Below the pieces are notes generated by a model, which saw nothing but the letters and a program-made list of their open reading frames with translations, ran no database searches and was not told the origin of the DNA. DNA of 41,949 nt from Deltaproteobacteria bacterium (lineage in GTDB: Bacteria; Desulfobacterota; Desulfuromonadia; Geobacterales; Pseudopelobacteraceae): contig JAFLLC010000036.1 in assembly GCA_019162745.1 (NCBI GenBank), forward strand, positions 1-41,949. Reading direction: 5' to 3'. A program made the position numbers and the translations under genes. Numbering within the stretch: position 1 is the first letter of the stretch; every line of letters begins with the position of its first letter. This document shows, piece after piece, positions 11,223 through 41,949 of the stretch.

Positions 11223-12281
11223 ATGATCAAAAAAGCCATAGCCAAAGTTGTTGACCGTGAAAATTTGACCGAAGGCGAGATGATCGAGGTCATGAATCAG
11301 ATCATGTCTGGTGAGTGCACCCCGGCGCAGATCGGAGCCTTTATCACCGCTCTGCGCATGAAGGGAGAAACTGTCGAGGAGATAACCGGCGCAGCCCGCG
11401 TCATGCGCGAACGGGCTACTCCGATCAAGGTCGGCAAAGGTGTGCTTGATATTGACCGCGACGATATCAACATCGACCGGGAAACAATCCTGGATGTGGT
11501 CGGCACAGGCGGCGACGGCACTAACACCTTCAACGTCTCCACTACCGTTTCCTTTGTGGTTTCGGCCTGCGGGGTCAAGGTAGCCAAGCACGGCAACCGC
11601 TCGGTCTCTTCCGCCTGCGGCAGCGCCGACGTACTCGAAAAGTTGGGTATTAATCTGGATGTGACACCCGATCTTGTCGAAAAGTGTATCGATCAGATCG
11701 GTATCGGCTTCCTGTTCGCCCCTGCCCTGCACGGCGCCATGAAGCACGCCATCGGCCCGCGCCGGGAGATCGGCATCCGCACAATCTTTAACATTCTCGG
11801 CCCCTTGACTAATCCGGCCGGTGCCGACTGCCAGGTGATGGGGGTCTACAGTCCTGATCTGGTGGAAAAGCTGGCCGGTGTACTGCACAAACTGGGGTGC
11901 AAGCATGGTTTTGTGGTTCATGGATCGGACGGCATGGATGAAATGACCATGACCGGTGAAACTCTCGTCGCCGAAGTCACCCCCGCCGGTATAAAACTGT
12001 TATCGGTCACCCCGGAACAGCTGGGACTGACGCGCTGCCTGATGCAGGCACTCAAGGGAGGCGATGCCGCTACCAACGCGGTAATCATTAAAGCAGTACT
12101 ATCCGGGGAACGTGGACCGCGGAGAGATATCGTCCTCCTGAATGCTGCCTATGCCCTGGTGGCCGCAGGCAAGACGGACTCACCCGCAGAAGGAATAACG
12201 CTGGCCGCTGAGGCTATTGATTCCGGCCGGGCGCTGCAGCAGGTGGAGAAGTTGGCGGTTTTGACTAATCATCTGATATGA
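11223..12281 (+). CDS. trpD: Anthranilate phosphoribosyltransferase
   Basis: Second committed step of tryptophan synthesis: anthranilate plus PRPP gives N-(5'-phosphoribosyl)anthranilate. It has 352 residues, normal for the unfused enzyme. [15 protein letters not shown] is the PRPP-binding glycine loop, and [18 protein letters not shown] is the second family signature. CTGGAG precedes the ATG. Its stop overlaps the trpC start (ATGA), so the two are translationally coupled. trpE, trpG, trpF, trpB and trpA are not in the window on either side, so the trp genes are split in this genome. Confidence 0.97.
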
Positions 12282-13099
12282 AAGCAGACACCATGACTAC
12301 CGATACCCCGGATATTCTTAAAAAAATAGTAGCTCACAAGATAGAAGAAGTAGCCTCTGCCAAATTCAAGGTTCCGCTCAGCGAACTGCAGGGACGTATA
12401 CTTGACCTGGAGGATGTGCCGCGCGGTTTCGAGCGTCATCTGCGTGATGCGGCAGCGTCCGGTTGGACCGCAGTCATTGCCGAGATCAAGAAGGGCTCCC
12501 CAAGCAAGGGCGTTATCCGTGATGATTTCGACCCGCTGGAGATTGCCGGGATCTATCAGGACAACGGTGCAATCTGCCTGTCGGTATTGACTGATGAGCA
12601 GTTCTTTCTAGGGCACCTCCGCTATCTGGCCCTGATCCGTGAAACGGTCTCCCTCCCGCTGCTGCGCAAGGATTTCATCTGTGATCCCTATCAGATCTTT
12701 GAGGCTCGGGCCGCCGGGGCGGATGCCATTCTGCTGATCGCCGCCATGCTTGATCTGAATACGCTGCTTGATTTCCATGCCGTGGCACAGGAGGTTCACC
12801 TGGATGTGCTGCTGGAAGTCCATGATGAAGCGGAGATGGAGAAGGCTCTTAAAACTGACTGCACCCTGATTGGTGTAAACAACCGCAATCTGAGGACGTT
12901 TGCAACCGATCTCGGCACTACCGGACGTCTGGCACGCATGATGCCGGCCGGCCGGTTCCTGGTGACTGAAAGCGGGATAAACCATCGGGATGATATCAAC
13001 CGTCTTGCTGCTGATGGAGCTCAAGCGTATCTGATCGGCGAATCCATGATGCGTGAAGCTGATATTGGTCAGAAACTTCGTGAACTGCTCGCCAGCTGA
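12278..13099 (+). CDS. trpC: Indole-3-glycerol phosphate synthase
   Basis: Closes the indole ring from carboxyphenylamino-deoxyribulose phosphate. This is the unfused 273-residue TIM-barrel form with no trpF part. Visible residues are the catalytic Lys in [30 protein letters not shown] and VTESGI. It starts at ATG 12278 within the trpD stop; ATG 12293 is a possible alternative. Its TGA (13097-13099) directly abuts the stop of the convergent ntrX, leaving no intergenic base and no room for a terminator outside coding sequence. Confidence 0.97.
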
Positions 13100-26894: not shown

Positions 26895-27032
26895 TTCGTT
26901 TTCAGGAGTCCCCCAAATTAACCAGGGTCAAGACCCTTCCGAGCGAGTTTTAGGCGCTTTTTTAGTTCGTCGGATTATTTTACAATTTTTCAGACCGGTG
27001 CGCCACATGTGCATTCGCAAGGATTCCCCTCT

Positions 27033-27734
27033 GTGACCAATTACCCTGCCTCCCGTTCTGCCTTTTATCGCTATCTCCCCTTTGCAGTCTTTATCGGTTT
27101 CATTGCCCTTGACGAGTTGCTCCGTTTTTTAGCCGGACAGGGGCTCTTCAAACTTGAAGCAACAACACTCTATTATCTTTACCCGGTCAAAGCTGTGATT
27201 ACCGGTTATCTGCTATACCGGTTCAAAGAACAGTACCACGAGCTGACGTTAAAAGATCTTGCCAACCTCAAGGCAACCATGGCGTCATGCGCGGTCGGCC
27301 TACTGGTTTTTGCGCTCTGGATCAATATGGACTGGGCTCTTGGAGCTGCCAGCGCTCCGCAGGGGTTTAATCCGCATCTGCTGCCGGGACAAAACATTCA
27401 GATCGCGATGACACTGATCAGGATTGCCGGGGCGGTATTGGTTGTCCCGCTGATGGAAGAACTATTCTGGCGCTCATTTCTTATCCGCTATGTTATTAAC
27501 CATGCGTTCGAGAATGTTCGCATCGGCACGTTTACCTGGGCATCTTTCCTTATAACCGTCATATTCTTCGGCCTCGAGCACAACTACTTCTATGCTGGCA
27601 TGATGGCGGGAATCTTCTACAATCTGCTCCTCTACAGGAACCGTAGTATTGCCCAGTGCGTACTGGCCCATGCCATGACCAACCTGGCGCTGGCTGTATA
27701 TGTTGTTGCTACCGGGAAGTGGCAGTTCTGGTGA
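27033..27734 (+). CDS. CAAX prenyl protease-related (CPBP) membrane protein of PEP-CTERM genomes
   Basis: Integral membrane protein of 233 residues with about six hydrophobic segments. It has the glutamic-type intramembrane protease motifs: EELFWRSF (EExxxR), FGLEHNYFYAG (FxxxH) and HAMTN. It resembles the CAAX-related family (TIGR03008, from memory) confined to exosortase-bearing genomes. That makes it a candidate processing or maturation protease for the PEP-CTERM pathway; no substrate is proven. I chose GTG 27033, nine bases after AAGGA. An earlier GTG at 27009 adds eight residues and has no good ribosome binding site. The first PEP-CTERM gene follows 206 bases downstream with its own promoter. 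Confidence 0.88.
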   Translation: MTNYPASRSAFYRYLPFAVFIGFIALDELLRFLAGQGLFKLEATTLYYLYPVKAVITGYLLYRFKEQYHELTLKDLANLKATMASCAVGLLVFALWINMDWALGAASAPQGFNPHLLPGQNIQIAMTLIRIAGAVLVVPLMEELFWRSFLIRYVINHAFENVRIGTFTWASFLITVIFFGLEHNYFYAGMMAGIFYNLLLYRNRSIAQCVLAHAMTNLALAVYVVATGKWQFW

Positions 27735-27887
27735 AGAATTAGCTTGAAGGTTACACCATAATGAAACCATCAACTGCCGTCAGGTGTTTATATCCCTCTG
27801 TCGGTTTTTTTTACATGTGTTTCAGAAATCAGTAAACACCCAGAATAAACGTTTTTAACCCTTTTAGTATTAGCTAGTTACACAGCT

Positions 27888-27903
27888 TGGCACATAAATA
27901 GCT
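27888..27903 (+). promoter_or_regulatory. Sigma-54 (-24/-12) promoter of PEP-CTERM gene 1
   Basis: TGGCACATAAATAGCT: the -24 element is perfect and the -12 element has one mismatch (TAGCT). GG (27889-27890) and GC (27901-27902) are 10 bases apart. It lies 38 bases before the ATG. Upstream, GTGTTT (27818-27823) and AAACAC (27834-27839) form an inverted repeat that might bind the activator. Confidence 0.75.
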
Positions 27904-27940
27904 TATCGAAATATAACTATTTTTTTAAGGAGATTCGCAT

Positions 27941-28816
27941 ATGAAAACTATAACAATTATAATCATCGCGCTTATTACGGCAGTTACTTTTACCGTTCCG
28001 GCGAGGGCTGTGTCCTTCTTAAGTTTAGATACAGGCAAAAATATTACTGTTAATGATTCCATATGGAATTCAACATACAACCCATATAATAATACGGTAG
28101 TGACTGCAACGAATGCTGGCAATGAGGACAATGAAACCGAGCGACTTCAAGACGGCAGAGTAACTTATACAGGGCAGAAATGGGACTTTGAAGGAATGTA
28201 TTGGAATTCAAATTCAAATGTACTTACGCTGATAGCAGGGTGGAATTTTGCCAATGGCGTAACACATAGCCCGAATGTTCAGGTAGGTGACTTGTTCATA
28301 GGTGACTGGAATAGCACACAATATTTAAATGGCGGGATCGTTGTCGCCCAAGGATTTACTCCCAGCATGGCACTAGATTTTTCAAGAGATACTACTGACG
28401 GGAGCCTCCAAGCTAACGGTACATACAATAAAATCACCGGTTCTTTCTCTACAAACACAACATCAGATGTAACACCACTTTCAGATCCATATACATACAA
28501 AAATGGCGGTACTCCCGTTTCTAATAATTATTTTACATACATAACTGGTAGCGTTGATAATACTCCTTTTCTAGGATGGGCTGATTCTGACAACAACAAC
28601 ATAATGAATAACAACCATTATTACATGCAGATATTCGGTCTTACAGGTTCGGAAGTCTACGACAATGTATTGCATATAACTCTCGCCTGTGGAAACGACG
28701 TTGGTAGAGGTGAAACAGTTGCTCCCGTCCCGGAACCAGGCACAATGATGCTTTTCGGCATCGGTATGCTTGGTCTTGCTGTCTACGGCAAGCGCCGCAT
28801 GAACAAAGACGCCTGA
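27941..28816 (+). CDS. PEP-CTERM sorting-domain protein 1
   Basis: Secreted protein of 291 residues. The Sec signal peptide is residues 1-23, ending PARA. The middle is Asn/Thr/Ser-rich, likely beta-rich, and of unknown fold. The C-terminus is the sorting signal: VPEPG at 263-267, a hydrophobic stretch and an Arg-rich tail (KRRMNK). The exosortase at 36613-38190 is expected to cut near the PEP and release or attach the protein at the envelope. AAGGAG precedes the ATG. A sigma-54 promoter lies upstream and a strong terminator downstream, so it is transcribed alone. Confidence 0.92.
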   Translation: MKTITIIIIALITAVTFTVPARAVSFLSLDTGKNITVNDSIWNSTYNPYNNTVVTATNAGNEDNETERLQDGRVTYTGQKWDFEGMYWNSNSNVLTLIAGWNFANGVTHSPNVQVGDLFIGDWNSTQYLNGGIVVAQGFTPSMALDFSRDTTDGSLQANGTYNKITGSFSTNTTSDVTPLSDPYTYKNGGTPVSNNYFTYITGSVDNTPFLGWADSDNNNIMNNNHYYMQIFGLTGSEVYDNVLHITLACGNDVGRGETVAPVPEPGTMMLFGIGMLGLAVYGKRRMNKDA

Positions 28817-28843
28817 TAGAGTTGTCACTATAAAGAGCTCGAC

Positions 28844-28878
28844 AAGAAAAGGCGCTGCAGTACGGGGCGCCTTTTCTT
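28844..28878 (+). terminator. Terminator after PEP-CTERM gene 1
   Basis: Perfect 12-bp stem (28844-28855 with 28867-28878), 11-base loop. The 3' arm itself ends in a T-rich tract (CCTTTTCTT). Confidence 0.75.
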
Positions 28879-29030
28879 ATGGGTAGTCTCGTATGGAATT
28901 AACATCCGGCAGGCCAACAAACCAGTGAAGCATGATAAACCTGACACTGATAAACAGGCAGGTGCCATGGAACACTTTAACCTAGAAACAGAGTTGGGGG
29001 ATGCAGAAATCACCAAATTACAGTTTTTGC

Positions 29031-29121
29031 GTAGGGGCAAAGCAAACGTCTCACCTGCTTTGCCCTTGATGGGATAAAGATCAAAGGCGGGCAAAGCAGA
29101 TGAAGCTTGCTTTGCCCCTAC
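29031..29121. repeat. REP-like double palindrome
   Basis: Four alternating copies of GGGCAAAGCA and its complement: 29035-29044, 29056-29065 (inverted), 29089-29098, and 29108-29117 (inverted). The outer arms extend to 14 bp (29031-29044 with 29108-29121). It can fold as two hairpins or one cruciform. This is the layout of REP/BIME elements, which are moved by RAYT transposases; no RAYT gene is in the window. Confidence 0.65.
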
Positions 29122-29252
29122 ATTATAAAACGGTATTCCAACAAGTTCCAGGTATCTAACCCAAAAAACGATTTGTTTTTTTGAAATAAGTCCTGGTTTT
29201 TCGGCGTGTGTCCGTTTTTATCGGCGGTTAACTGCCGTTTGCTTCACAAATC
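29122..29252. other. Non-coding spacer between repeats
   Basis: No gene seen. It contains a TTTTTATCGGCGGTTAACTG segment that resembles the 'CGGCGTTCATCTGCGGTT' type sequence at 31923-31940, which belongs to a widespread intergenic repeat class. The whole gene-free stretch 28879-29451 is made mostly of repeats. Confidence 0.4.
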
Positions 29253-29331
29253 AACCCCTCCAAACCTCCCCTTATCAAGGGAGGCTTAAAGGCCTCCCCC
29301 CTGATAAGGGGGGATTGAGGGGGGTTGGGGT
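29253..29331. repeat. Long imperfect palindrome of C-rich and G-rich arms
   Basis: The left arm (29253-29285, CCCCTCC...TTATCAAGGGAGG) pairs imperfectly with the right arm (29291-29331, CCTCCC...TGATAAGGGGGG...GGGG) around a TTAAA centre. This type of 'CCTTATCAGGGGGG' palindrome is a common dispersed element in bacterial intergenic DNA. Confidence 0.65.
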
Positions 29332-29451
29332 TGGTTTAGATGTCACCCATCACTGGCGAGCCAGCCAAATCCTAATGTTGAAAAACTTTACAATCGGCAA
29401 GAAGCGTTCCAATAAACTTATTAAACACTGTAATTACAGCAAGATACAACT

Positions 29452-29467
29452 TGGCACTGGAATTGCT
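29452..29467 (+). promoter_or_regulatory. Sigma-54 (-24/-12) promoter of PEP-CTERM gene 2
   Basis: TGGCACTGGAATTGCT matches the consensus except one weakly conserved position. GG (29453-29454) and GC (29465-29466) are 10 bases apart. It lies 71 bases before the ATG. A perfect 12-bp palindrome CTGTAATTACAG lies at 29429-29440, and TAAACAC (29422-29428) is shared with the upstream region of PEP-CTERM gene 1. Confidence 0.8.
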
Positions 29468-29537
29468 TTACTATGATCACATAACAAAATTATTTAATTG
29501 CAAAACTCGCAATAACCCAAAACAGGAGGAACAGAAA

Positions 29538-30251
29538 ATGAGAAAAAGAATGGTAGCATTACTGGCAGGGGCGATGTTGATGATGGCAACGAGTGCAATG
29601 GCAATAACGGTAGGACCAGACGGTTCATATGTAAAGTCAAATAATTTAATCGAATTTTACGATACTGGGGCAGAGTCGGTTGTACTCAACGACGCAGATG
29701 GGGTATCCGATGATGCAAATGCATTTATGCTTCTGGAACTTGCTGGTTATTATGGTACAAACACATTAGGGATTTATGGTTTCACAATGTCTGGTACCAC
29801 TGTGAATGTTGTGAATACACTTCAAGTATTTGCAGGTGGAGACAACGTTGGTAGCGATGGTAGCGATACATCTCTTGAATTTGACCTTCTTGCAGGAACT
29901 GTAAAAAACTCAATAACTGGTGTTACTGCATCGATTGGAAAAAATTTCGGATTCTACCTTACGACACAAGAGGGTTATACATTCTATACACATACTTCTC
30001 TTAACGCAGATAATAAAGATCACTTCAGAGTCTATGATACAAGTGCACATACTGGAACCGGTTTTAGTCAGTCTGACGTTGTTCTGGGAATAGAAGATTT
30101 GTACAATCTTGGTGATCATGATTATGACGATATGGTTGTTGGCGTGACTGACGTTTCTCCAGTTCCAGAGCCAGGCACAATGTTGTTGTTCGGCATCGGT
30201 ATGCTCGGCCTTGCTGTCTACGGCAAACGCCGCATGAACAAAGAAGCCTGA
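29538..30251 (+). CDS. PEP-CTERM sorting-domain protein 2 with DUF4114-like region
   Basis: Secreted protein of 237 residues with a signal peptide (MRKRMVALLAGAML to SAMA, about 22 residues). The region near residues 170-205 (GIEDLYNLGDHDYDDMVVGV) resembles DUF4114, a putative calcium-binding beta domain. The C-terminus is the sorting signal VPEPG (209-213), a transmembrane stretch and KRRMNK. The frame is open from 29451, but ATG 29538 follows AGGAGGA and begins the signal peptide; the longer form would also overlap the sigma-54 promoter. Its sorting tail is nearly identical in DNA to that of PEP-CTERM gene 1, while the bodies are unrelated. Confidence 0.93.
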   Translation: MRKRMVALLAGAMLMMATSAMAITVGPDGSYVKSNNLIEFYDTGAESVVLNDADGVSDDANAFMLLELAGYYGTNTLGIYGFTMSGTTVNVVNTLQVFAGGDNVGSDGSDTSLEFDLLAGTVKNSITGVTASIGKNFGFYLTTQEGYTFYTHTSLNADNKDHFRVYDTSAHTGTGFSQSDVVLGIEDLYNLGDHDYDDMVVGVTDVSPVPEPGTMLLFGIGMLGLAVYGKRRMNKEA

Positions 30252-30272
30252 TAGATACATAGGCTACAGCTT

Positions 30273-30312
30273 AACAAGAAGAGGCGTTGCGAAAGCAGCG
30301 CCTCTTCTTGTT
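30273..30312 (+). terminator. Strong terminator after PEP-CTERM gene 2
   Basis: Eighteen-bp stem (30273-30290 with 30295-30312, one G-T pair) capped by a GAAA tetraloop. The 3' arm ends CTTCTTGTTTGTT. It also separates this transcript from the convergent prsR. Confidence 0.8.
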
Positions 30313-30363
30313 TGTTGGGAAACTTTACACTCTTTAAAGTACAGAGAAGCGGGTTTTAAAACA

Positions 30364-30425
30364 CGGTAAAGCGGTGATGCGTGGATGCGCTTTTCTGAGC
30401 CTTCACCCCTTCCCCGCTTCCCCGC
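30364..30425. repeat. GCGGTGATGCGG / CCGCTTCCCCGC repeat, copy a (overlaps prsR 3' end)
   Basis: CGGTAAAGCGGTGATGCG (30364-30381) differs at one of 18 bases from 37246-37263, and CCGCTTCCCCGC recurs at 30414-30425. The element supplies the last codons and stop of prsR (residues GGEAGKG). Related copies lie at 36558-36617 and 37246-37375. Confidence 0.65.
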
Positions 30426-31794
30426 CTAACGGTGTCAAATTGTGCTTTTTTAGCAGATCATAAAGAGTCGGCCTGCTCACCCCCAACTCCTCGGCAGCTT
30501 TGACAACATTGCCATTCTGGCGATCTATCGCTGCGGCGATCATTTCCCGTTCTACCTTGTCCCTGGCCTCCCGCAGCCTGATAACCGGCTGGATATCCTC
30601 CTCCAGGGTCGGCAAATCCATTTTGCAGCCAAGATCCGACGGTTCCAGTGCCGAGGCATCACTCATAAGGATCGCGCGCTGAATCCTGTTTTGCAGCTCA
30701 CGCACGTTTCCCGGCCACTCATAACTCTTGAGAAAATCCATTGACGCTGAACTGAAGCGGCGCACTTTTTTCCGGTACTCTTCCCTGAACATCCGCAGAA
30801 AATAATTGGCCAGCATCAGGATATCATCGCCCCGCTCCCTTAGCGGAGGCAGGTTAATCGTTATGACACTGATCCGGTAATACAGATCCTCGCGGAATTT
30901 ACCCTCCTTGATCGCCCGGTCAATATCCACGTTAGTGGCACAGACCGTCCGCGTGTCGATGGGAATATCCTGCCTGCCCCCTACCCGCTGAATGACCCCT
31001 TCCTGCAGAAAACGGAGCAGCTTCACCTGGAGGTTGAACGGCAGCTCTCCGATTTCATCGAGAAACAGCGTGCCCTTGTCTGCGTATTGGACCTTTCCCT
31101 GTACAGTGGCATGGGCACCGGTGAATGAGCCCTTTTCATGGCCGAATAATTCAGACTCAATAAGATTTTCAGGAATGGCGCCGCAATTGATCGCCACAAA
31201 CGGGCTGCTCTTGCGCAGGCTTGCTTCATGGATCGCCTGGGCCACCAGCTCCTTCCCGGTGCCGTTTTCACCTGTAATAAATATCGACACATCGGATGGC
31301 GCCACTTTTTTGATGGTTGAGAAAATTGACAGCATCTCCGGACACTGCCCGATCATCCCTCCTGATTCCATCGACTTAAGGTTGATTATTCGTTGCAGTG
31401 AGCGGTTCTGCTCTTCAAGGTTGGACAAGTTAAACGCTCTGCCAAGAACAACCAGCAGTTCACTGACCACAGGCGGCTTGGGAAAAAAGTCATAGGCCCC
31501 CATCTGCATCGCCTTCAACGCATTTTCACGCTCGCTGTTGCCGGTCAGCATGATTACTTTAACGTACGGATCCAGTTCAAGTAATTCACCCAGTCCACGA
31601 AATCCTTCAACAGAAGTATCCACGTGGGGTGGAAGCCCGAGATCAAGAATAACAACCCGGGGCCGATATTTCTTGAACACGCCAATTCCTTCATTAACAT
31701 CAGCGGCCAGCAGCACCGCATAATCTTCACCCAGCCCCCACTTCAGCTGCTGGCGTAGATCGGAATTGTCATCAATAATTAATAGTTTTTCCAC
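30403..31794 (-). CDS. prsR: PEP-CTERM-box response regulator PrsR
   Basis: Sigma-54 activator of the exosortase system, 463 residues. The receiver (1-125, D51) has the family-typical LGLPPHVD segment. The AAA+ domain has GENGTGKE, GSFTGA (222-227, with the key Thr intact) and GTLFLDEIGEL. A Fis-type HTH near 430-452 reads VVKAAEELGVSRPTLYDLL. It is expected to activate the sigma-54 promoters of the PEP-CTERM genes at 27888 and 29452. The last residues (GGEAGKG) are encoded by a dispersed repeat and replace the usual end just after the HTH. It is separated from prsK by 356 bases of repeat DNA. Confidence 0.95.
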   Translation of the reverse strand: MEKLLIIDDNSDLRQQLKWGLGEDYAVLLAADVNEGIGVFKKYRPRVVILDLGLPPHVDTSVEGFRGLGELLELDPYVKVIMLTGNSERENALKAMQMGAYDFFPKPPVVSELLVVLGRAFNLSNLEEQNRSLQRIINLKSMESGGMIGQCPEMLSIFSTIKKVAPSDVSIFITGENGTGKELVAQAIHEASLRKSSPFVAINCGAIPENLIESELFGHEKGSFTGAHATVQGKVQYADKGTLFLDEIGELPFNLQVKLLRFLQEGVIQRVGGRQDIPIDTRTVCATNVDIDRAIKEGKFREDLYYRISVITINLPPLRERGDDILMLANYFLRMFREEYRKKVRRFSSASMDFLKSYEWPGNVRELQNRIQRAILMSDASALEPSDLGCKMDLPTLEEDIQPVIRLREARDKVEREMIAAAIDRQNGNVVKAAEELGVSRPTLYDLLKKHNLTPLGGEAGKG

Positions 31795-32150
31795 AGGAGA
31801 CCTCTTAACCTATAAACCAAAATCGGCAGTTTAATAACACGGAGACACTGAGAACACGGAGAAATCAAAGGCTTAATACCCTTTAGGTAAACCAAAATCT
31901 TTCGGCTTTGTCTTGGTTCTAATCGGCGTTCATCTGCGGTTCCAACAAAAGCTTTCAGTCTTTTAATCCTGAAGCTAAAACCTTTTTGCCTCTGATCTTA
32001 ATCCTAAAGGCTTTAATCCTGAGTAATCCTGAGTAATCCTGAAGCTAAAACCTTTTTTCAGCCTCGGGATTACTTCGATTACTCTGGATTTAACGTCAAA
32101 AGCGTTAATCATGGATAATCCTGAAGCTACAATAGCTTTTCAGTCCCGGT
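31795..32150. repeat. Repeat-filled spacer between prsK and prsR
   Basis: No gene. It contains, in order: an ACACGGAGACACTGAGAACA-type tract (31836-31860); a CGGCGTTCATCTGCGGTT segment (31923-31940); a 24-bp direct repeat TAATCCTGAAGC...TTTTT at 31964-31987 and 32034-32057; iterated AATCCTGAGT units; and the 60-bp element at 32051-32110. These sequence classes are typical Geobacter intergenic repeats. No clear promoter for prsR is seen. Confidence 0.6.
32051..32110 (-). repeat. Dispersed 60-bp intergenic repeat, copy 2
   Basis: Inverted relative to copy 1 at 26835-26894, with 53 of 60 bases matching. The mismatches cluster in the middle (four adjacent bases). Confidence 0.7.
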
Positions 32151-34202
32151 TTACGGATTTGCGCTGTCATCAAACCACACGGTAAAAACCGAGCCGCTTC
32201 CCTCCACACTGTTCACTTCAATTCTGCCGCCATGCGCTTCAACAATCTGCTGACACTGGTACAATCCAATGCCAAGGCCCTGCCTCTTGGTAGTCCTGAA
32301 TGGCTTGAACAGTTCTGTACGCAAATAGCTGGCCGACATCCCGCAGCCTTTATCACTTACTCTGATAAACGGCACGCCGGAACACCCGACTTCTAAAGCA
32401 ACCGGTTCATGCTGGTCGGACGCTTCGATTCCATTTATAAGGAGGTTCAAAATGACTTTCTGAATCTCGTTTTCATCGACCAGTGCAGTCTCGGCAGTTC
32501 CGGAAACGGTAATCGTGCTGCCGGCGACCAACTTTGCTGTTTTATCAGCCAGTTCAAGTATGTTTACCTGCTGCCGGCTGATGGGATCGAGTTCGCCAAG
32601 ATTTTTCATTCTGGCGATAAGTTTCTGCATTTTGTCAACGGTATTTCCCAGTGACGTAAGCATATCCTTCTGAAAATCCGGATTATGTATATATTTAGCG
32701 GCATTTTCGACAATCAGCGACAGATTTGACACCAGGTTTTTCAGGTCATGCGCAACAAAGGTGGCAACATTGCCGATCGCCTCGATTTCGCGGGCATGGG
32801 TGAGCTGTTGTGTCTGCCGATGATGCAGGAGCGCCAGGGAAGCCTGCCGGGCGATTGTTTTCATCAAATCGTAATCTTCATAAATAAAAGATTCATTGGT
32901 ATTAATGGATTTGCCAAGAGCAATAAAGCCCTCCAGTCTCTCGCCGTCAAACAGAGGAATTACAATAAAGATACTGTTTTCACCGAAAAAATAGCCATTT
33001 TCTTCCAGTATTTTAGAATTGTCATCCCGAATGTTTATGACCCAGGAACTCTCTTTCATAAATTTGATCAGGGAATTATCCCTGGTTAGTATATCCGGAA
33101 TCCGCTTCATTTGAAAACTGTCCGTCATGCAATATCCGGCATAGACCTCTTCATAAAGGAAAAGAGCCGCACCGCCTGTTCCAAAAATTTCGCAATACGC
33201 CGAAAGAATTCTTTGCTGGAGTTCATCCAGCGTTCTGGCGGTTGCGAGCAGTTCAGTGAAACGAAGCCACTGGGTTCGGTAATCGTGCTTATGCTGATAA
33301 AAGTTTTTACGCAGCAGCACCTTGATCTTACGCCGGAATTGTTCAGAGAGCAGCAGAATCAGCAAGGCTATCCCGCTCAGGAAGGCGAGAGAGATAGTCA
33401 CTGTGCGCGGGAAAAAGGTGCCGAAATACTTCATCCCTTCGCCCAAAAGCCCGATCAAGACAAGATAAATACCCACGGCAAACAGCACAACTGATTTGAA
33501 AGCAACCTGACGTGATACCTGAATGTGGACGTTGCCACGCCGGAATGTCAGCGAATATGCTATCAGCGCCGCAGCGACCAGATAAAGAAAGGAGCGCACA
33601 GGCAGATAATTCATGTTCAGTGATCGATACAACAATGCCTGACTGTAGTAGAAGATCTGCACCGCCAGCATAATACCGATGCCGATGACCTCATATTTGA
33701 TTGTCCAGAGGGCTTCGGGCGAGGCATTGGCAAGCGTTACTTCAAAGTTGACCAGGGCAATAATCAGACAGGCCATCAAAGCTATATAAAAGAAATAACC
33801 GGCGTTGCCAAGAAAGAGCATCCGTTCAGCGGGGAAATCGGGGGCGTAAAAAAAATCGCACAGAGGCAGCGTTTTGGCAACAACTAAAAAAAGGAATGTG
33901 GCAGCAACCATCGTCCTGGCCGTCAGGCCTATTTTCCATGGTCCGGACTGCCGGGCAAAAGTCAGGCTGCAGAGTATCCAGAACGGGGGGAGAAGAGACT
34001 CGGTAAACAAGGCGCATTCTTTCCAGAAAAAAGCATCGGCGGATGAGGCAAAGGACAGCAGATCGAATAATTCGAGCAGAGCGGTGGCGGTGATGGCAGC
34101 AAAGAGGAACAGCCCTGCCCGGGAGCGCTCTTTATAGATGGCATAGCCTGCACCGGCAAGTAAAACAATAATTGCCGTTATGGAAATAATCATATTAACC
34201 AT
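32151..34202 (-). CDS. prsK: PEP-CTERM system histidine kinase PrsK
   Basis: Membrane sensor kinase of 683 residues. The N-terminal 300 residues hold about eight or nine hydrophobic segments, the PrsK family trait. A GAF domain follows (about 320-460), then a HisKA domain with H485 in VAHDLKNLVSNL and an ATPase domain (NLLINGIEA, DKGCGMS, GLGIGLYQC). It is the cognate kinase of PrsR. The start at ATG 34202 has no strong ribosome binding site; ATG 34193 is an alternative. It lies 12 bases after tviC and is probably cotranscribed with the sugar-nucleotide genes and the exosortase. Confidence 0.95.
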   Translation of the reverse strand: MVNMIISITAIIVLLAGAGYAIYKERSRAGLFLFAAITATALLELFDLLSFASSADAFFWKECALFTESLLPPFWILCSLTFARQSGPWKIGLTARTMVAATFLFLVVAKTLPLCDFFYAPDFPAERMLFLGNAGYFFYIALMACLIIALVNFEVTLANASPEALWTIKYEVIGIGIMLAVQIFYYSQALLYRSLNMNYLPVRSFLYLVAAALIAYSLTFRRGNVHIQVSRQVAFKSVVLFAVGIYLVLIGLLGEGMKYFGTFFPRTVTISLAFLSGIALLILLLSEQFRRKIKVLLRKNFYQHKHDYRTQWLRFTELLATARTLDELQQRILSAYCEIFGTGGAALFLYEEVYAGYCMTDSFQMKRIPDILTRDNSLIKFMKESSWVINIRDDNSKILEENGYFFGENSIFIVIPLFDGERLEGFIALGKSINTNESFIYEDYDLMKTIARQASLALLHHRQTQQLTHAREIEAIGNVATFVAHDLKNLVSNLSLIVENAAKYIHNPDFQKDMLTSLGNTVDKMQKLIARMKNLGELDPISRQQVNILELADKTAKLVAGSTITVSGTAETALVDENEIQKVILNLLINGIEASDQHEPVALEVGCSGVPFIRVSDKGCGMSASYLRTELFKPFRTTKRQGLGIGLYQCQQIVEAHGGRIEVNSVEGSGSVFTVWFDDSANP

Positions 34203-34214
34203 ATTTCAAGTAAC

Positions 34215-35240
34215 TCACAGGTTCGCCATATACCATGAAAGGGCGGCATCAAGTCCCGCATCAATTGTATGGCTCGGCTCAAACCCTAAAAGACGCACCG
34301 CTTTACTGATATCTGCCTGGGAATGGAGCACATCCCCTTTCCGGAACTCTCGATAGACCGGTTTGCTCCCCTGTAGATGGGGAAAGTGTGGCAACAGGCG
34401 GCCATGGAGCATACTGAAGAGCTCATTTAGCGACGTACGTGCATTCAGCGCAGTGTTGAATACCTGATTTATCGCAGCGGCCTCAGCGGTTGTCGCGGCC
34501 AGCAGGTTCATCTGTATCACGTTTTCCACGAAGCAGAAATCTCTGCTGGTTTCACCGCTGCCATTGATATGGACCGTTTCTCCCTTGATCAGCGCCCTGA
34601 TCCAGCAAGGGATTACAGCAGCATAGGCACCCTCCGGGTCCTGACGAGGACCGAACACATTGAAGTAGCGCAATCCGATCAGCTCCATCCCATAGGTTCT
34701 GGCGAAGACATCTGCATAGAGTTCATTTACGTATTTGGTAACCGCATAGGGCGACAGAGGTCTGCCGATCGTATCCTCAACCTTTGGCAGACCCGGATGG
34801 TCGCCGTAGGTTGAGCTGCTGGCGGCGTAGACAAACCTTTTTACCCCCGCATCCCGCGCTGCCACAAGCATGTTAAGAAAACCGCTGACATTACTCTCGT
34901 TACTGGTAATTGGATCTTCGATAGAGCGTGGCACCGACCCAAGTGCCGCCTCGTGAAGAATATAATCCGCATTCTGACAGACTTCACGGCAGGTTGCTAA
35001 CTCGCGGATATCCCCTTCGATAAAACTGAACCGCTGCCACTGTTCCGCAGTAACCAACCCCTGCACCTCCTGCAGGTTGGAAGGTTTCCCGGTCGAAAAA
35101 TTATCCAGACCAATAACCCGCTGATTCAATTGGAGAAGTTTTTCCAGCAGGTTGGAGCCGATAAAACCGGCACAGCCGGTGACAAGCCAGATTTTAGGAT
35201 CTGATTGCAATTGGTTGAGTACTGTTTCGTAACGATTCAT
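34215..35240 (-). CDS. tviC: UDP-N-acetylglucosamine 4-epimerase, WbpP/TviC type
   Basis: Interconverts UDP-GlcNAc and UDP-GalNAc, or their uronic acids. It has 341 residues, like Pseudomonas WbpP. The N-terminus reads RYETVLNQL then [16 protein letters not shown], the NAD-binding Rossmann motif. Catalytic Tyr165 and Lys169 lie in SPYAVTKY, with the Ser in [10 protein letters not shown] chose ATG 35240, which follows GGGAG and matches the family start; an upstream ATG-like extension to 35315 overlaps tviB. Its start lies 10 bases after the tviB stop, consistent with a two-step pathway in one operon. Confidence 0.93.
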
Positions 35241-35250
35241 AAGACTCCCT

Positions 35251-36537
35251 TCACAGTCTCCACACCTTGATACCCGCCGCAGCCATCGCCCGCTGGTCAA
35301 ACATCCCCTTGACATCGATCAAAACAGGGTTGGTTCCCATCAGGGCGGAAATATCCTCAATTGACCACTTCAGGAACTGCTGGTGAGAAACTGCGGCAAC
35401 GACTGCAACAGCCGGTTTTAAGTCTGATATAGGCACCAGCTTGACGCCGTACTCATGAACCGCTTCGTCAGGATCAGCCATCGGGTCGCACACCTGGACA
35501 TCAACGCCATAATCCTGAAGTTCCCGGATGATATCTATCACCTTGGAATTACGCAGATCAGGACAATCTTCCTTAAAAGTCAAACCAAGCACAGTCACGA
35601 TATTTCCCAGAATAGTATGCCCCGAGTGAATCATTTCCCTGATGGCACGCTGGGCCACAAATTTCCCCATACCGTCGTTGATCCGGCGTCCGGCCAAGAT
35701 AACCTGGGGGATATAGCCGATCTTCTCCGCCTTATGAGTGAGATAGTACGGATCAACACCGATACAGTGCCCGCCAACAAGGCCCGGCTTGAACTTGAGA
35801 AAATTCCACTTCGTACCTGCCGCTTCAAGCACATCGTTGGTATCAATCCCCATGCGATCGAAGATCAGCGCCAGCTCGTTCATCAAGGCTATATTCAGGT
35901 CGCGCTGTGTATTTTCAATGACTTTCGCCGCCTCGGCTACCTTGATGGAGGAGGCCCGGTGGACGCCGGCGGTTACAACCGATTCATACACACTGGCCAC
36001 GATCTCAAGGGTCTCCGCATCCTGGCCGGAAACAACTTTTTTGATTTTGGTAAAGGTGTGCTCTTTATCACCCGGATTGATCCTCTCCGGGCTGTAGCCC
36101 ACCGTGAAATCCCGCCCGCAGACGAGACCCGACACCCTTTCCAGCACCGGTACGCATTCGTCTTCCGTCACCCCCGGATAAACTGTTGACTCATAAACAA
36201 CAATATCGCCTTTTTTCAGCGCCTTGCCAACTGTCTCGGATGCCCGGTACATCAGGGTAAGATCCGGCTGATGCGCTTCATCCACCGGAGTCGGCACCGC
36301 CACGATATGGAAATCCGCCTGGGCAAGCTCGTCCAGTTTTTCGGTAAAAAGGATATCCGCCGATTGCAGATCCGCAGCCGTTACCTCACCGGTCCGGTCA
36401 TGCCCATTCTGCAGCTCTTTGATCCTTATCTGGTTGATATCAAAACCGACTGTACGGCGAACCTTGCCAAAGGCAACCGCAACCGGTAAGCCGACATAAC
36501 CAAGCCCGATGACGGAAATAATTCTTTCAGTGTTCAT
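35251..36537 (-). CDS. tviB: UDP-N-acetyl-D-hexosamine 6-dehydrogenase, TviB/WbpO type
   Basis: Oxidises C6 of UDP-GalNAc or UDP-GlcNAc to the uronic acid, using two NAD. It has 428 residues. The N-terminal NAD motif is GLGYVGLP; catalytic C258 is in [28 protein letters not shown] is the central family segment. Its closest relatives are Vi-antigen TviB and WbpO. Together with tviC it supplies UDP-N-acetylgalactosaminuronate for an exopolysaccharide. AGGAG precedes the ATG. A dispersed repeat fills the gap to the exosortase gene upstream. Confidence 0.94.
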
Positions 36538-36557
36538 AAAATCTCCTAGTTTTTTTT

Positions 36558-36617
36558 AGTGAAGCGGGAAAGCAATAAAGCGGTTAAAAAGCGCATCTCC
36601 GCATCCCCGCATTCACT
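36558..36617. repeat. GCGG/CCCCGC repeat, copy b (between exosortase and tviB)
   Basis: Imperfect palindrome with ends AGTGAAGCGGGAAAGC (36558-36573) and GCATCCCCGCATTCACT (36601-36617). It shares the GCGG-spaced vocabulary of copies a and c and overlaps the exosortase stop codon. Confidence 0.55.
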
Positions 36618-38190
36618 TAGGCAAAAACTCCCTGAATGACGGTTCAAAATCACGTATAAACTGTTCACCCTGAGCGACAGCCTGGTCAACATTCGCGTCA
36701 ACCGGCACTGACACCCGTATAAAGGAAGCATCCCGGCGACTGTACATAACCGAATTGGTTATTTCAGCAAGTTTCAGAGAATATTCGTCTGAAATAGAAC
36801 GATCCCGCACCTGATACCAGTACAGGAACAGTTCTCTGCTGTCACCCTTCTGGTAGACAGCCCGCACAAGATTGATCGCACCTCCGGGAATCGCCAGAAT
36901 CCCCCGGCGTGACGAGACCTCGTGCCAGCCGCTGCCGGGCAGGCAGTGTTTGGGAGAATGGATCTCGCCCCCGCCTTTGCCGCCACCATGATAACCGATA
37001 TAAAGATTTACCGTTTTCCCGGCAACATTTTTGTACTGACTGGAGAGATAATCTGTCGCTTTCAGCACACCAAGAACAGAAGCACTAAACTCGCTTCGAT
37101 TGGTCAGCTGCCATGACTGCACCTGTTTCGGAAATTCACTAAAGGGACGATTGATTGGTACATCGGTATCTCTGTGGAAGTTAATAACCATCGCGGCAGC
37201 CGCAAACAGAGCGTAAACTGCAATGATGCGGGAATTGAAATGCTGCGGTAAAGCGCTGATGCGGTCAAGCGGTGATACGGCAACATCAACATCCGGTGAT
37301 GCGGTAATGCGGTCATCCGCTAATGGGGAGAGTCCGCTTCCCCGCTTCCCCGCTTTCCCGCCCCCCCGCTTAACCACCGCGCCGAACGCAAACAGCATCA
37401 CCATGGCCAGCACAAACACCGCTACGCCGGCAAATTCATGGAAAAAACCTTCTGCCGCCCTCCCCCCCCACCATTGGGCCAGTATGCCGGTCACAATCAC
37501 CCTCAGCATATTAGTTGCAACAGCAATCGGAATGGCAGAGAAAATGATGATCCAGCGACGCACATTGGAAGTACCCATCATAAATGCATACGCCACGGCA
37601 ATAGCCAGCAGTGAAATAAGCGACCGTATACCGCTGCAGGCATCCGCGACTTCCAGCGTAGTCGTGGGAAACATGATAATGTTCCCCTCACGCATCACCA
37701 CAACCCCGACTAGTTTTAAAAATACGACTGAAACCTTGGTAACAAACAGCTTGAGCGGGAAGGCAAGCATATCGTAGATAATATAGGGGATTGGTACCAT
37801 GAAAATCAGATACCCCAACGGCATGGCCATCCCCTTCAGAATCTCACGACCGAACCAGAAAAGCGTCATACCGACCAGCAGCACGATAAGGGAACTTCGC
37901 ATGGTGAAATACTCGGTACCCAACCAGGCTGCCAGAAGTTGCAGCAGACCCCAGACGATCACTAAAAGCCCAAGTGCATCCGGTTTAACAAGACGGTTTT
38001 TCAGGTCAGGCCAGCGCTGCCAGAGAAAGTATCCGGCAATGATCGGGACAAAAAAACCGTGCGCATAGTTTTCATCCTGATACCATTCTTTGACCATATC
38101 GGGCACGATCGTGTAATACATTCCGACAAGCAAGGGCAGGACCAGAATAAGCTTTAGGCGCTGCTGTTTCAGCGCTTCACCGAATGTCAT
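36613..38190 (-). CDS. Exosortase fused to EpsI domain
   Basis: Transpeptidase-like membrane enzyme that processes PEP-CTERM proteins. In 525 residues, 1-272 form the exosortase with about eight membrane segments, ENYAHGFFVPI, and the catalytic triad C185 (ADACSGIRS), R230 (NMLRV) and H251 (FFHEFAG). Residues 322-525 form an EpsI-type domain with one membrane segment and HSPKHCLPGSGW. The two are joined by a 46-residue hydrophilic linker (274-320) made from a dispersed DNA repeat. I chose ATG 38190, ten bases after GGGAAGG; the frame is open to 38340. The fusion recalls the XrtD type, while the PrsK/PrsR neighbours recall the XrtA type, so the subclass is left open. It heads a minus-strand operon. 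Confidence 0.94.
   Translation of the reverse strand: MTFGEALKQQRLKLILVLPLLVGMYYTIVPDMVKEWYQDENYAHGFFVPIIAGYFLWQRWPDLKNRLVKPDALGLLVIVWGLLQLLAAWLGTEYFTMRSSLIVLLVGMTLFWFGREILKGMAMPLGYLIFMVPIPYIIYDMLAFPLKLFVTKVSVVFLKLVGVVVMREGNIIMFPTTTLEVADACSGIRSLISLLAIAVAYAFMMGTSNVRRWIIIFSAIPIAVATNMLRVIVTGILAQWWGGRAAEGFFHEFAGVAVFVLAMVMLFAFGAVVKRGGGKAGKRGSGLSPLADDRITASPDVDVAVSPLDRISALPQHFNSRIIAVYALFAAAAMVINFHRDTDVPINRPFSEFPKQVQSWQLTNRSEFSASVLGVLKATDYLSSQYKNVAGKTVNLYIGYHGGGKGGGEIHSPKHCLPGSGWHEVSSRRGILAIPGGAINLVRAVYQKGDSRELFLYWYQVRDRSISDEYSLKLAEITNSVMYSRRDASFIRVSVPVDANVDQAVAQGEQFIRDFEPSFREFLPK
37246..37375. repeat. GCGGTGATGCGG / CCGCTTCCCCGC repeat, copy c (inside exosortase gene)
   Basis: Tandem-like GCGGT(G/A)ATGCGG words (37246-37320) followed by CCGCTTCCCCGC words (37334-37375). 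It lies fully inside coding sequence and in frame, and encodes the linker between the two domains. Copies a and b are non-coding or at gene ends. Confidence 0.7.
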
Positions 38191-38484
38191 AATATGGATA
38201 CCTTCCCGGTTAATCATAAAAGCTTCAGAGCAGCTATACAAAGGAGGAACGAAAATGATATTGGCTTCAGGATTTCCTGTGTTTCCTCTGCCGTTTATAG
38301 TGTTATAAATTTTGAGAACTATATAGATATATTTTAACATTTACAACAACTGACACAGCTGAATGCCACATTTGGCGATATTTACTATAGTGGTTAAAGG
38401 GGGATGAGGGATTTTATCTGCACGACAAGTGGTACAACACCTTTGTGGACCGACTGGAAATACAACTGTACTTTTATTGCCGCA

Positions 38485-39887: not shown

Positions 39888-40424
39888 TTAATTAAAGCTG
39901 GCTGTAGCGGTAGCCTCCAACGGATTCCCCCCCGATATCCCATCAAAAGGGGCAAAGGCTTCATATTCAAAATTACTATTTATATCGGCGGGATTTGGCA
40001 CATAACTACTCGGGACAGTGACCAAAATTGTGATAAATTCACCAAGTTCGTAACTATTTGTTGTTGGATAATTGATTTTTAATTCCCGTGTAATACTATT
40101 ATAAGCAACAGTGTTTGCAGTGAGTATGGCAGCATTTTGAAATTTACCGGACAAAAAGACGATACTAGATAATGGGACTGCCACGGCAGCGCCCTCTGAG
40201 TCAAGTTTTATTTCAGTTTGTATGGCAGAAATACTCGGCAGGGTTACAGTCAGGTTAAAACCGCCTATCAGATCACCTGAATTAGTGCTTTGCGAAGAAA
40301 ATTTCAATGTTGCAGTTTTTGTTGTAGGTAGCGGCGTACCCCCCCCACCCCCCCCACCGCAACCAGCGATAGTTTGAGCCATAATAATAACCAGCAACAC
40401 AGCATAGCATTTCAAAAACCGCAT
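39888..40424 (-). CDS. Lipoprotein with possible cohesin-like domain
   Basis: Exported lipoprotein of 178 residues. The signal peptide ends in the lipobox IAGC (C about residue 21), followed by seven Gly. The rest is a beta-rich domain: FNLTVTLP near its start, then TRELKINYPTTNSYELGEFITILVTVP, ending with a conserved-looking TATASF. This pattern resembles the cohesin-like lipoproteins I recall from Geobacter, but no strict motif proves it. ATG 40424 follows GGGAGGA. It lies 86 bases downstream of, and on the same strand as, a gene with a C-terminal dockerin-like domain, which is the main support for a cohesin role. Confidence 0.8.
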   Translation of the reverse strand: MRFLKCYAVLLVIIMAQTIAGCGGGGGGGTPLPTTKTATLKFSSQSTNSGDLIGGFNLTVTLPSISAIQTEIKLDSEGAAVAVPLSSIVFLSGKFQNAAILTANTVAYNSITRELKINYPTTNSYELGEFITILVTVPSSYVPNPADINSNFEYEAFAPFDGISGGNPLEATATASFN

Positions 40425-40448
40425 AAATCCTCCCGAAACCCAATTCGC

Positions 40449-40482
40449 CAAGAAGGTAACGTTTCGCAACGTCACCTTCTTG
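40449..40482. other. Intercistronic hairpin upstream of the lipoprotein
   Basis: Fifteen-bp stem with one mismatch (40449-40463 with 40468-40482) and a TCGC loop. On the plus strand it is followed by five T (40483-40487), but no plus-strand gene ends here. On the minus strand, which is transcribed, there is no U-run and the stem ends about 15 bases before the lipoprotein ribosome binding site. It may therefore control RNA stability or relative expression of the two genes. Confidence 0.5.
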
Positions 40483-40510
40483 TTTTTCAAGTACACCTGA
40501 ATTCAGAAAA

Positions 40511-41949
40511 TTACAAGATGGTTTTCCCAACAATTTTTGAGAGAAGTACTATCGCGTCACCAGTATCAACCTTGCCATCAGGTGCAGACTTGCCATGTAC
40601 GACAGGAGCCACGTCCAGACGAGTTTTCTGGTCAGAGGTTGCCTTTACTTTTCCCGATCCAATTTGAAGTGCAAGAAGTGCATCGGAAATTGTAGGGATA
40701 CTGCTATCCGGCAATGTAATGGTGACTGAGGCGGAACGGCTGGCGGAGATATTACCGGTGGCATCTTTGGCCCAGGCGTAGGCGGTTTTCGTGCCGGCGC
40801 TTGCGAAGGTATAGCTGGCAGGGGCAGAGGCTGACCACCCGCTGGCGGAAACAGATGGGGCTGTCGCGCTTTCGGTAATCAGATAGCCGGTGACGCCGAT
40901 GTTGTCGCTGGCGATGAGTCCGGAAACCGGCACGGTCAGTGATGTTGCGCTTGCCGGCAGGGTAAAGCCGCCAAGCAGCGGTGCGATTACGTCCGGCAAT
41001 GTTATGGTGACTGAGGCGGAACGGCTGGCGGAGATATTGCCGGTGGCATCTTTGGCCCAGGCGTAGGCGGTTTTCGTGCCGGCGCTTGCGAAGGTATAGC
41101 TGGCAGGGGCAGAGGCTGACCACCCGCTGGCGGAAACAGATGGGGCTGTCGCGCTTTCGGTAATCAGATAGCCGGTGACGCCGATGTTGTCGCTGGCGAT
41201 GAGTCCGGAAACCGGCACGGTCAGTGATGTTGCGCTTGCCGGCAGGGTAAAGCCGCCAAGCAGCGGTGCGATTACGTCCGGCAATGTTATGGTGACTGAG
41301 GCGGAACGGCTGGCGGAGATATTGCCGGTGGCATCTTTGGCCCAGGCGTAGGCGGTTTTCGTGCCGGCGCTTGCGAAGGTATAGCTGGCAGGGGCAGAGG
41401 CTGACCACCCGCTGGCGGAAACAGATGGGGCTGTCGCGCTTTCGGTAATCAGATAGCCGGTGACGCCGATGTTGTCGCTGGCGATGAGTCCGGAAACCGG
41501 CACGGTCAGTGATGTTGCGCTTGCCGGCAGGGTAAAGCCGCCAAGCAGCGGTGCGATTACGTCCGGCAATGTTATGGTGACTGAGGCGGAACGGCTGGCG
41601 GAGATATTGCCGGTGGCATCTTTGGCCCAGGCGTAGGCGGTTTTCGTGCCGGCGCTTGCGAAGGTATAGCTGGCAGGGGCAGAGGCTGACCACCCGCTGG
41701 CGGAAACAGATGGGGCTGTCGCACTTTCGGTAATCAGGTAGCCGGTGACGCCGACGTTGTCGCTGGCGATGAGGCCGGAAACCGGCACGGTCAGCGATGT
41801 TGCGCTTGCCGGCAGGGCAAAGCCGCCAAGCAGTGGTGCGGCCATGTCAGGCAATGTTATGGTGACTGAGGCGGAACGGCTGGCGGAGATATTACCGGTG
41901 GCATCTTTGGCCCAGGCGTAGGCGGTTTTCGTGCCGGCGCTTGCGAAGG
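40511..41949 (-). CDS. Ig-like repeat surface protein with C-terminal dockerin-like domain (5' end outside window)
   Basis: The N-terminus lies beyond the right edge; 479 C-terminal residues are visible. They consist of four complete 95-residue repeats and part of a fifth, each with SLTVPVSGLIASDN, GVTGYLITESATAPS and FASAGTKTAYAWAKDATGNIS. This beta-sandwich repeat is common in Desulfuromonadales surface proteins. The C-terminal 60 residues resemble a type I dockerin. The second calcium loop is well formed (PDGKVDTGDAIVLLSKIVG). The first is degenerate: the D-N-D loop is replaced by LPDSSIPTISDALLALQIG. It is probably secreted and non-covalently anchored. The downstream lipoprotein is the natural cohesin candidate. 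Confidence 0.85.
   Translation of the reverse strand, partial: FASAGTKTAYAWAKDATGNISASRSASVTITLPDMAAPLLGGFALPASATSLTVPVSGLIASDNVGVTGYLITESATAPSVSASGWSASAPASYTFASAGTKTAYAWAKDATGNISASRSASVTITLPDVIAPLLGGFTLPASATSLTVPVSGLIASDNIGVTGYLITESATAPSVSASGWSASAPASYTFASAGTKTAYAWAKDATGNISASRSASVTITLPDVIAPLLGGFTLPASATSLTVPVSGLIASDNIGVTGYLITESATAPSVSASGWSASAPASYTFASAGTKTAYAWAKDATGNISASRSASVTITLPDVIAPLLGGFTLPASATSLTVPVSGLIASDNIGVTGYLITESATAPSVSASGWSASAPASYTFASAGTKTAYAWAKDATGNISASRSASVTITLPDSSIPTISDALLALQIGSGKVKATSDQKTRLDVAPVVHGKSAPDGKVDTGDAIVLLSKIVGKTIL
40711..41949. repeat. 285-bp tandem repeats in the Ig-repeat gene
   Basis: Exact period of 285 bp (95 codons): units start at 40711, 40996, 41281, 41566 and 41851 (partial). 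The middle units look almost identical in DNA, including at third positions, while the outermost ones differ at several. This indicates recent expansion or ongoing homogenisation. Confidence 0.95.

Follow-up and report, generated by a model that had tools for sequence, protein, structure and literature searches.

A candidate cohesin-dockerin-type pair of an Ig-repeat protein and its neighbouring lipoprotein, recurring in the Geobacter order

Two adjoining genes at the right end of the window

The stretch of DNA analysed here (the window) comprises 41,949 nucleotides of a Geobacterales contig (JAFLLC010000036.1, C18 below). At its right end two genes lie on the minus strand, that of an immunoglobulin (Ig)-repeat protein with a dockerin-like C-terminus and then that of a short lipoprotein with a cohesin-like domain. 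We consider it likely that the two products bind each other. The features are as follows, with their evidence in brackets:

39888..40424, minus strand: gene of the cohesin-like lipoprotein (178 amino acids from ATG 40424; the open reading frame (ORF) listing, 39888-40496, starts at GTG 40496)
40359..40424, minus strand: lipoprotein signal peptide with lipobox (..QTIAG, then C), followed by a poly-Gly linker (sequence)
39891..40334, minus strand: predicted cohesin-like beta domain of the lipoprotein (AlphaFold2 model and VIA structure comparison; no Pfam match)
40450..40481, minus strand: 14-bp hairpin in the spacer between the genes (fold energy, genome uniqueness, covariation)
40511..41949, minus strand: 3' portion of the gene for the Ig-repeat dockerin protein, with its stop at 40511 (ORF; the 5' part lies outside the window, past a 100-N gap, to about C18:43752)
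40709..41947, minus strand: Ig-like repeats inside the window (NCBIfam NF047446, five stretches; PKD_4 barely above its cut-off)
40514..40708, minus strand: dockerin-like domain formed by the final 65 residues of the repeat protein (AlphaFold2, VIA and profile)
40682..40708, minus strand: degenerate loop 1 (DSSIPTISD) of the dockerin-like domain (alignments, pattern count)
40556..40615, minus strand: interrupted loop 2 (DVAP, insert, DGKVDTGD) of the same domain (family-wide form in alignments)

The ATG at 40424, which GGGAGG precedes, is the likelier start of the lipoprotein; from there the protein begins MRFLKCYAVLLVIIMAQTIAG, followed by CGGGG, and the residues up to the Cys fit the general lipobox rule. 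The contig continues to 44622 bases, and the gap directly past the window end (C18:41950-42049) sits within near-identical Ig repeats and cuts the repeat protein, whose frame starts beyond it at an ATG near C18:43752.

Recurrence of the pair and co-divergence of its partners

Searching the window's own genome with the lipoprotein revealed relatives on contigs C3 and C30 and a weaker one on C147; with the Pfam dockerin model, mostly sub-threshold matches appeared beside these same lipoproteins. All three loci share one order: a protein with a dockerin-like end, then a lipoprotein with a cohesin-like domain. By family profiles (family alignments of 18 dockerin-like C-termini and 26 lipoprotein domains), the genome holds four dockerins and four lipoprotein domains, all of them paired. 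The neighbouring same-strand pair described in the initial annotation is real and recurs in fixed gene order. Two other matches of the lipoprotein search were dropped, a poly-Gly lipoprotein without visible relation on C129 and a weak match on C1 inside a gene that is NusA-like by resemblance.

The dockerin-like domain is more than a chance resemblance, because its profile matches 98 of the 138 genomes of the order at E <= 1e-8 (own genome included), with as many as 17 domains per genome. The lipoprotein profile matches 87 of the 138 at E <= 1e-5 (up to 16 domains per genome). At these thresholds, and assuming the same 138 genomes for both searches, 87 genomes have both domains, 11 the dockerin only, none the lipoprotein only and 40 neither. 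Copy numbers of the two correlate (Spearman 0.85 across the 138 genomes, 0.72 among dockerin genomes); the genomes being related, p-values for this co-occurrence overstate independence. A search with the window lipoprotein matched in 42/58 genomes (own included) at E <= 0.01, where many weak matches were confined to the signal and Gly stretch, as was mainly the case by eye for loci L041, L043 and L047-L053.

The two genes also lie together. Across 13 fully listed genomes (12 single-contig genomes and the window's own), 43 of 53 lipoprotein domains are found at most 2 kb downstream of a dockerin on the same strand, against a chance expectation of 0.09. Order-wide, taking the best 150 of 455 and the best 150 of 314 matches, a listed lipoprotein domain follows on the same strand, no more than 1.7 kb downstream, for at least 68 of the 150 best-listed dockerins, and for the other three possible arrangements the count is 0 of 150. 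A neighbouring lipoprotein is present at 22 of the 26 loci parsed out of 30 (L084, L089, L090 and L093 were left out), 21 by script and L096 by eye and profile match. Amongst 15 named loci, the profile places the lipoprotein domain just downstream in nine, including Geobacter sp. OR-1, Geomesophilobacter sediminis and Desulfuromonadales metagenome-assembled genomes; L060 is a tenth by eye only, an N run splitting its lipoprotein gene, and five have none there, among them another OR-1 locus and two from Clostridia. The pairing thus recurs order-wide, far beyond the window, and current domain models mostly miss it.

Where paired, the partners diverge together beyond the species tree. For 64 of the 68 pairs, dockerin distances and partner lipoprotein distances correlate with a Mantel r of 0.55, which none of 5000 full permutations reached. 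Swapping partners within genomes only gave a mean of 0.24 and a maximum of 0.47, again with 0/5000 reaching the observed value; this permutation controls for the species tree and not for linkage, because genes that duplicate jointly would also correlate.

Other arrangements were seen around related pairs. One 1243-amino-acid frame (G008:C471:17217-20846) seemingly carries two Pfam cohesins and a dockerin, is followed by a lipoprotein domain, and looks scaffoldin-like. In two of the four pairs of the window's genome, a gene for an OmpA-like outer-membrane protein (by resemblance) follows the lipoprotein (L020:2381-3589 on C3; L021:949-2100 on C30). Upstream of the C3 dockerin (L020:4755-10000) are long repeat proteins with tail-fibre-like features, whose end resembles the S74 self-cleaving chaperone.

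Predicted folds, spacer hairpin and surroundings

The AlphaFold2 model of the dockerin-like domain (14 sequences) has a predicted local distance difference test (pLDDT) score of 80. When compared with known structures using VIA, all 15 rows shown were dockerins (Z 6.9-4.1), and on this predicted model the window's C-terminal domain has the dockerin fold. The initial annotation had described a dockerin-like domain with one good calcium loop, DGKVDTGD, and one degenerate loop. The fold and the degenerate loop 1 hold: window loop 1 retains its last Asp only, and its ligands are absent from the six window-type sequences. The supposedly good loop is not canonical; DGKVDTGD is the second half of loop 2 (ligand positions 5, 9 and 12), parted by an 8-residue insert from a first half that reads DVAP. 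By eye, all 64 paired relatives have a loop 2 of this kind, with D-x-x-P, an insert and a second calcium-loop half or near equivalent. In loop 1, a DxNxD pattern is present in 25/64; a relaxed pattern is matched by 31 and unmatched in 33, a few of which still look loop-like. Having lost loop 1 and with an insert in loop 2, the window domain lacks the two duplicated 12-residue calcium loops of PF00404, and neither Pfam (PF00404) over its cut-off nor NCBIfam matched it. PF00404 matches 5 of the 18 family members at E <= 1, and the C3 relative passes the cut-off when its frame neighbours are included (22.3 vs 22.9 bits otherwise).

The lipoprotein domain was modelled without templates from nine sequences, with a pLDDT of 61 and a predicted template-modelling score (pTM) of 0.61. 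In the VIA comparison, cohesins, identified by title (ranks 1 and 3 being titled as scaffoldin components), occupy ranks 1-36 of the 50 rows shown (Z 8.2-5.7, root-mean-square deviation 3.0-4.4), and the first other fold appears at rank 37 with Z 5.5. On a predicted model of pLDDT 61, the domain has the cohesin beta-sandwich fold. The resemblance to cohesins first suggested for this lipoprotein is therefore borne out by structure comparison, albeit on a medium-quality model, and an unrelated fold was not what we found; profile comparison gave it no such backing (below). The assignment is made because of the VIA result, Foldseek alone being weak: there, cohesins 2xdh and 8ajy stand at ranks 24 and 31, with the 2xdh probability of 0.72 the top of the 50 rows shown. 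Homology with cohesins at sequence level was rejected after Pfam, NCBIfam, PDB-sequence and profile-profile searches. From the predicted fold, in a model of medium quality, together with the genetics, we infer a cohesin-like lipoprotein; the pair is cohesin-dockerin-like, and not a filed member of PF00963 and PF00404.

The 86-nt spacer between the genes folds at -32.1 kcal/mol (the shuffles used for comparison preserve base composition only) and contains the 14-bp stem. A dispersed repeat was considered and rejected; the 26-nt hairpin pattern, allowing <=3 mismatches, occurs at a single place in the genome. The stem lies at the same place in 8/9 window-type loci (the L063 spacer differs), and no such stem was found in C3- and C147-type spacers. 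When those 8 of the 9 loci were aligned, 92% of cells pair and 8 of the 14 pairs have changes on both sides, compared with slid controls at <=59% paired and <=3 such pairs. A terminator scan of the spacer found none; L026 does carry a T-run. RNA processing sets the product ratio in a clostridial cellulosome operon, and the hairpin here may set the ratio of the two gene products.

Outside the window (C18:43132-43740; also L016 and L189), the repeat protein starts with three MshEN-like domains of the kind that bind cyclic di-GMP (c-di-GMP). A profile of its first ~195 residues and three relatives matched PDB sequences of MshE (5htl, E 8.1e-9) and PilF (6f8l, E 2.8e-18, three stretches). The published relaxed c-di-GMP motif (PMC5013675) is matched only within the third repeat, by two 24-residue stretches (144-167 and 173-196) with 5 residues between them; the strict motif had no match across the three head proteins scanned. 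In Pfam, MshEN/T2SSE_N was not among the matches listed for the head at E <= 5, and DUF4388 was listed above its cut-off. A signal-like segment, LQKMLVSSVLAAILSLSMSAPGFASS, comes after the head. This head module is present in 41/138 genomes of the order at E <= 1e-20, and once in the window's genome. At 12 fetched head loci the dockerin end lies within the locus in six, in one of these partly. The rest leave the locus or contig, reach the gap or, in the case of L198, end without a dockerin.

Within the window, 27009-38340 is an exosortase/PEP-CTERM exopolysaccharide locus, with a PEP-CTERM response regulator, the histidine kinase PrsK, an exosortase with EpsI domain and a CAAX-type protease above cut-off, and TviC- and TviB-like sugar enzymes and PEP-CTERM-like proteins below it. 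Exosortase-like genes (by resemblance) are also near the pair in L026, L061 and L062. These surroundings, which the pair adjoins, suggest that it has a role in matrix or envelope build-up.

A probable envelope tether and its alternatives

From gene order, recurrence, co-divergence and predicted folds, we infer the binding and, with it, the calcium need, the membrane and its face, and the purpose. The repeat protein and its neighbouring lipoprotein would probably form a plug and socket of the cohesin-dockerin type that tethers the repeat protein to the envelope. The Ig-repeat protein would be exported via the signal-like segment, and its C-terminal dockerin-like domain would dock on the neighbouring gene's lipoprotein by way of the latter's beta sandwich. 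The lipid would anchor the lipoprotein in a membrane, probably the outer membrane because Gly follows the lipobox Cys, lipoproteins being sorted according to the residue in that position. Calcium, if bound, would occupy the interrupted second loop, and a calcium dependence resting on this one loop is plausible. The purpose would be envelope or matrix attachment beside the exopolysaccharide locus. Where present, the lipoprotein is as a rule dedicated to the product of the repeat-protein gene immediately before it; the pairing of the genes therefore points to a set of single dedicated tethers rather than a shared scaffold. Unpaired dockerins may use the lipoprotein of another pair or another cohesin.

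The MshEN-like head bears on the orientation. Because a triple head of cytoplasmic type precedes the signal-like helix, the repeat protein may reside in the inner membrane or may be made as a precursor that is then processed; the lipoprotein, for its part, may be periplasm-facing. If the segment is uncleaved, the repeat protein would be an inner-membrane protein whose ectodomain meets the lipoprotein. A more elaborate version, which we hold to be doubtful, is a c-di-GMP-responsive envelope tether, with the MshEN domains in the cytoplasm, the uncleaved helix through the inner membrane, an Ig ectodomain docked on its own lipoprotein, and the messenger setting attachment to envelope or matrix near the exosortase/exopolysaccharide machinery. 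The likeness of the head is to the MshEN c-di-GMP receptor domains of MshE and PilF (PMC5013675); those domains sit on an ATPase, whereas here they are fused to an exported Ig-repeat/dockerin protein.

A number of observations weigh against binding between the two proteins. The loss of loop 1 argues against ordinary two-calcium dockerin chemistry. The lipoprotein model has a pLDDT of only 61 and a best VIA Z of 8.2, barely above the tool's caution line of 8, and plain Foldseek gave no match at E <= 0.001. The window lipoprotein has no match in Pfam (PF00963) or NCBIfam; a single one of the 26 family members matches Pfam Cohesin (E 0.016, 15.8 bits vs a cut-off of 24.1); hhalign of the family against 13 of the 24 Pfam-positive local cohesins gave a probability of 1.4; and searching PDB sequences with the lipoprotein returned nothing significant. 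The pairing is incomplete: for 31 of the 73 dockerins in the 13 fully listed genomes no lipoprotein domain was detected within 2 kb, and ten of the 53 lipoprotein domains lack an upstream dockerin over that distance and have none within 2 kb in another arrangement either. The lipoprotein was not detected in 11 of the 98 dockerin genomes, and L064 (Geobacter sp. OR-1), with the same MshEN head as the window protein, has no lipoprotein domain in the 6 kb downstream. Co-divergence, too, may be caused by linkage and joint duplication.

Part of this could be accommodated if the two proteins do not bind at all, the C-terminal domain acting as a signal for export or as an ion-stabilised cap, and the lipoprotein as an independent adhesin in a shared operon. 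The degenerate loops, the lack of cohesin homology at sequence level and the many dockerins without lipoprotein fit that account. It sits poorly with the fixed order and orientation, the nested occurrence and the within-genome co-divergence, and with both partners matching the two halves of one known complex; we regard it as unlikely.

The dockerin could instead have another cohesin as its true partner, above all the C-terminal one of a conserved pilus/type II-like secretin, or that of a secreted protein of ~430 amino acids, the lipoprotein merely accompanying it. Pfam cohesins are widespread, occurring in 56/58 genomes (own included), commonly in frames of ~790-930 or ~420-510 amino acids, and could serve the dockerins without a local lipoprotein domain. 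The window's genome has two, one of the secretin type (851 amino acids) and one secreted (429 amino acids), and neither is at the window locus. They are rarely close to dockerins, however: a Pfam cohesin lies within 5 kb of 3 of the 49 listed same-genus dockerins (49 dockerin rows set against 90 of the listed cohesin rows; by eye, no remaining row is on a contig with any of the 49). Two genomes without any match to the dockerin profile, G006 and G027, also have long-frame cohesins, whereas the lipoprotein domain is found in 0/40 dockerin-free genomes. On this evidence another partner is improbable.

Of these two cohesin proteins, the first (L018:2536-5088, on C1) is a secretin-type lipoprotein with its Pfam cohesin at the C-terminus, encoded among pilus/type II-like genes, and similar-size cohesin frames are common in relatives; it might handle dockerin proteins during export. 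The second (L019, on C37, cohesin at 12108-12350) carries its cohesin at the N-terminus and, at the C-terminus, a single calcium-loop motif, DLNNDGVRDYVDEF; cohesin frames of its size recur in relatives, adjoining a dockerin-lipoprotein pair in G015.

Finally, that the lipoprotein domain is some other Ig-like beta sandwich lying near cohesins in Foldseek and VIA by chance, as the pLDDT of 61, the low Foldseek ranks and the unrelated fold at VIA rank 37 might allow, is very unlikely given that the first 36 VIA rows are all cohesins and that the domain encoded alongside matches dockerins only.

A plug and socket formed by the repeat protein and the lipoprotein would resemble the cellulosomal type I pairs in that one protein ends in a short plug and another supplies the beta-sandwich socket, and the Clostridium thermocellum type I cohesin-dockerin structures (PDB 1ohz, 2ccl, 1aoh) are the top structural matches of both predicted domains. 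Unlike in those pairs, no scaffoldin or cellulase is seen at the window locus, the socket is a single-domain lipoprotein, the dockerin has lost loop 1 and has loop 2 interrupted, and there is no detectable sequence homology. The non-cellulosomal setting put forward in the initial annotation stands, in that no cellulosome-like scaffoldin was seen among the Pfam cohesins of the window's genome. Non-cellulosomal cohesin and dockerin modules were reportedly reviewed by Peer et al. in 2009. The cohesin of Archaeoglobus fulgidus (2xdh), the best-ranked cohesin in plain Foldseek, is likewise used outside cellulose degradation; unlike it and other non-cellulosomal modules, the present system has a dedicated lipoprotein after the dockerin gene across one bacterial order.

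In anaerobic methanotrophic (ANME) archaea and their syntrophic sulfate-reducing partners, three papers describe cohesin/dockerin proteins that may be adhesins and whose role is unclear (PMC10553843, PMC9012536, PMC5244752), one of the papers mentioning an Ig-domain adhesin with adjacent cohesin/dockerin domains (PMC10553843). Our pair shares with these adhesins a proposed extracellular attachment in anaerobes (PMC9012536, PMC10553843) and differs in that they were found by existing domain libraries, whereas neither Pfam nor NCBIfam detects the window pair. Asymmetric dockerin halves are also a feature of the group 1 single-binding-mode dockerins of Ruminococcus flavefaciens, which coordinate two calcium ions (PMC5429695), in contrast to the window dockerin with its lost loop 1. 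Among the open-licence PubMed Central (PMC) matches listed, none has a title or abstract that deals with a dockerin-lipoprotein pairing; there may be an earlier mention of such dockerins in Geobacter.

If the two proteins do bind as proposed, the Geobacter order would have a widespread and largely unannotated protein-attachment system of dedicated binding pairs, and cohesin-dockerin logic would extend to Gram-negative lipoprotein anchors. The paralogous pairs would then be available for studies of specificity. If, in addition, the MshEN head works, c-di-GMP signalling would be joined to a physical tether.

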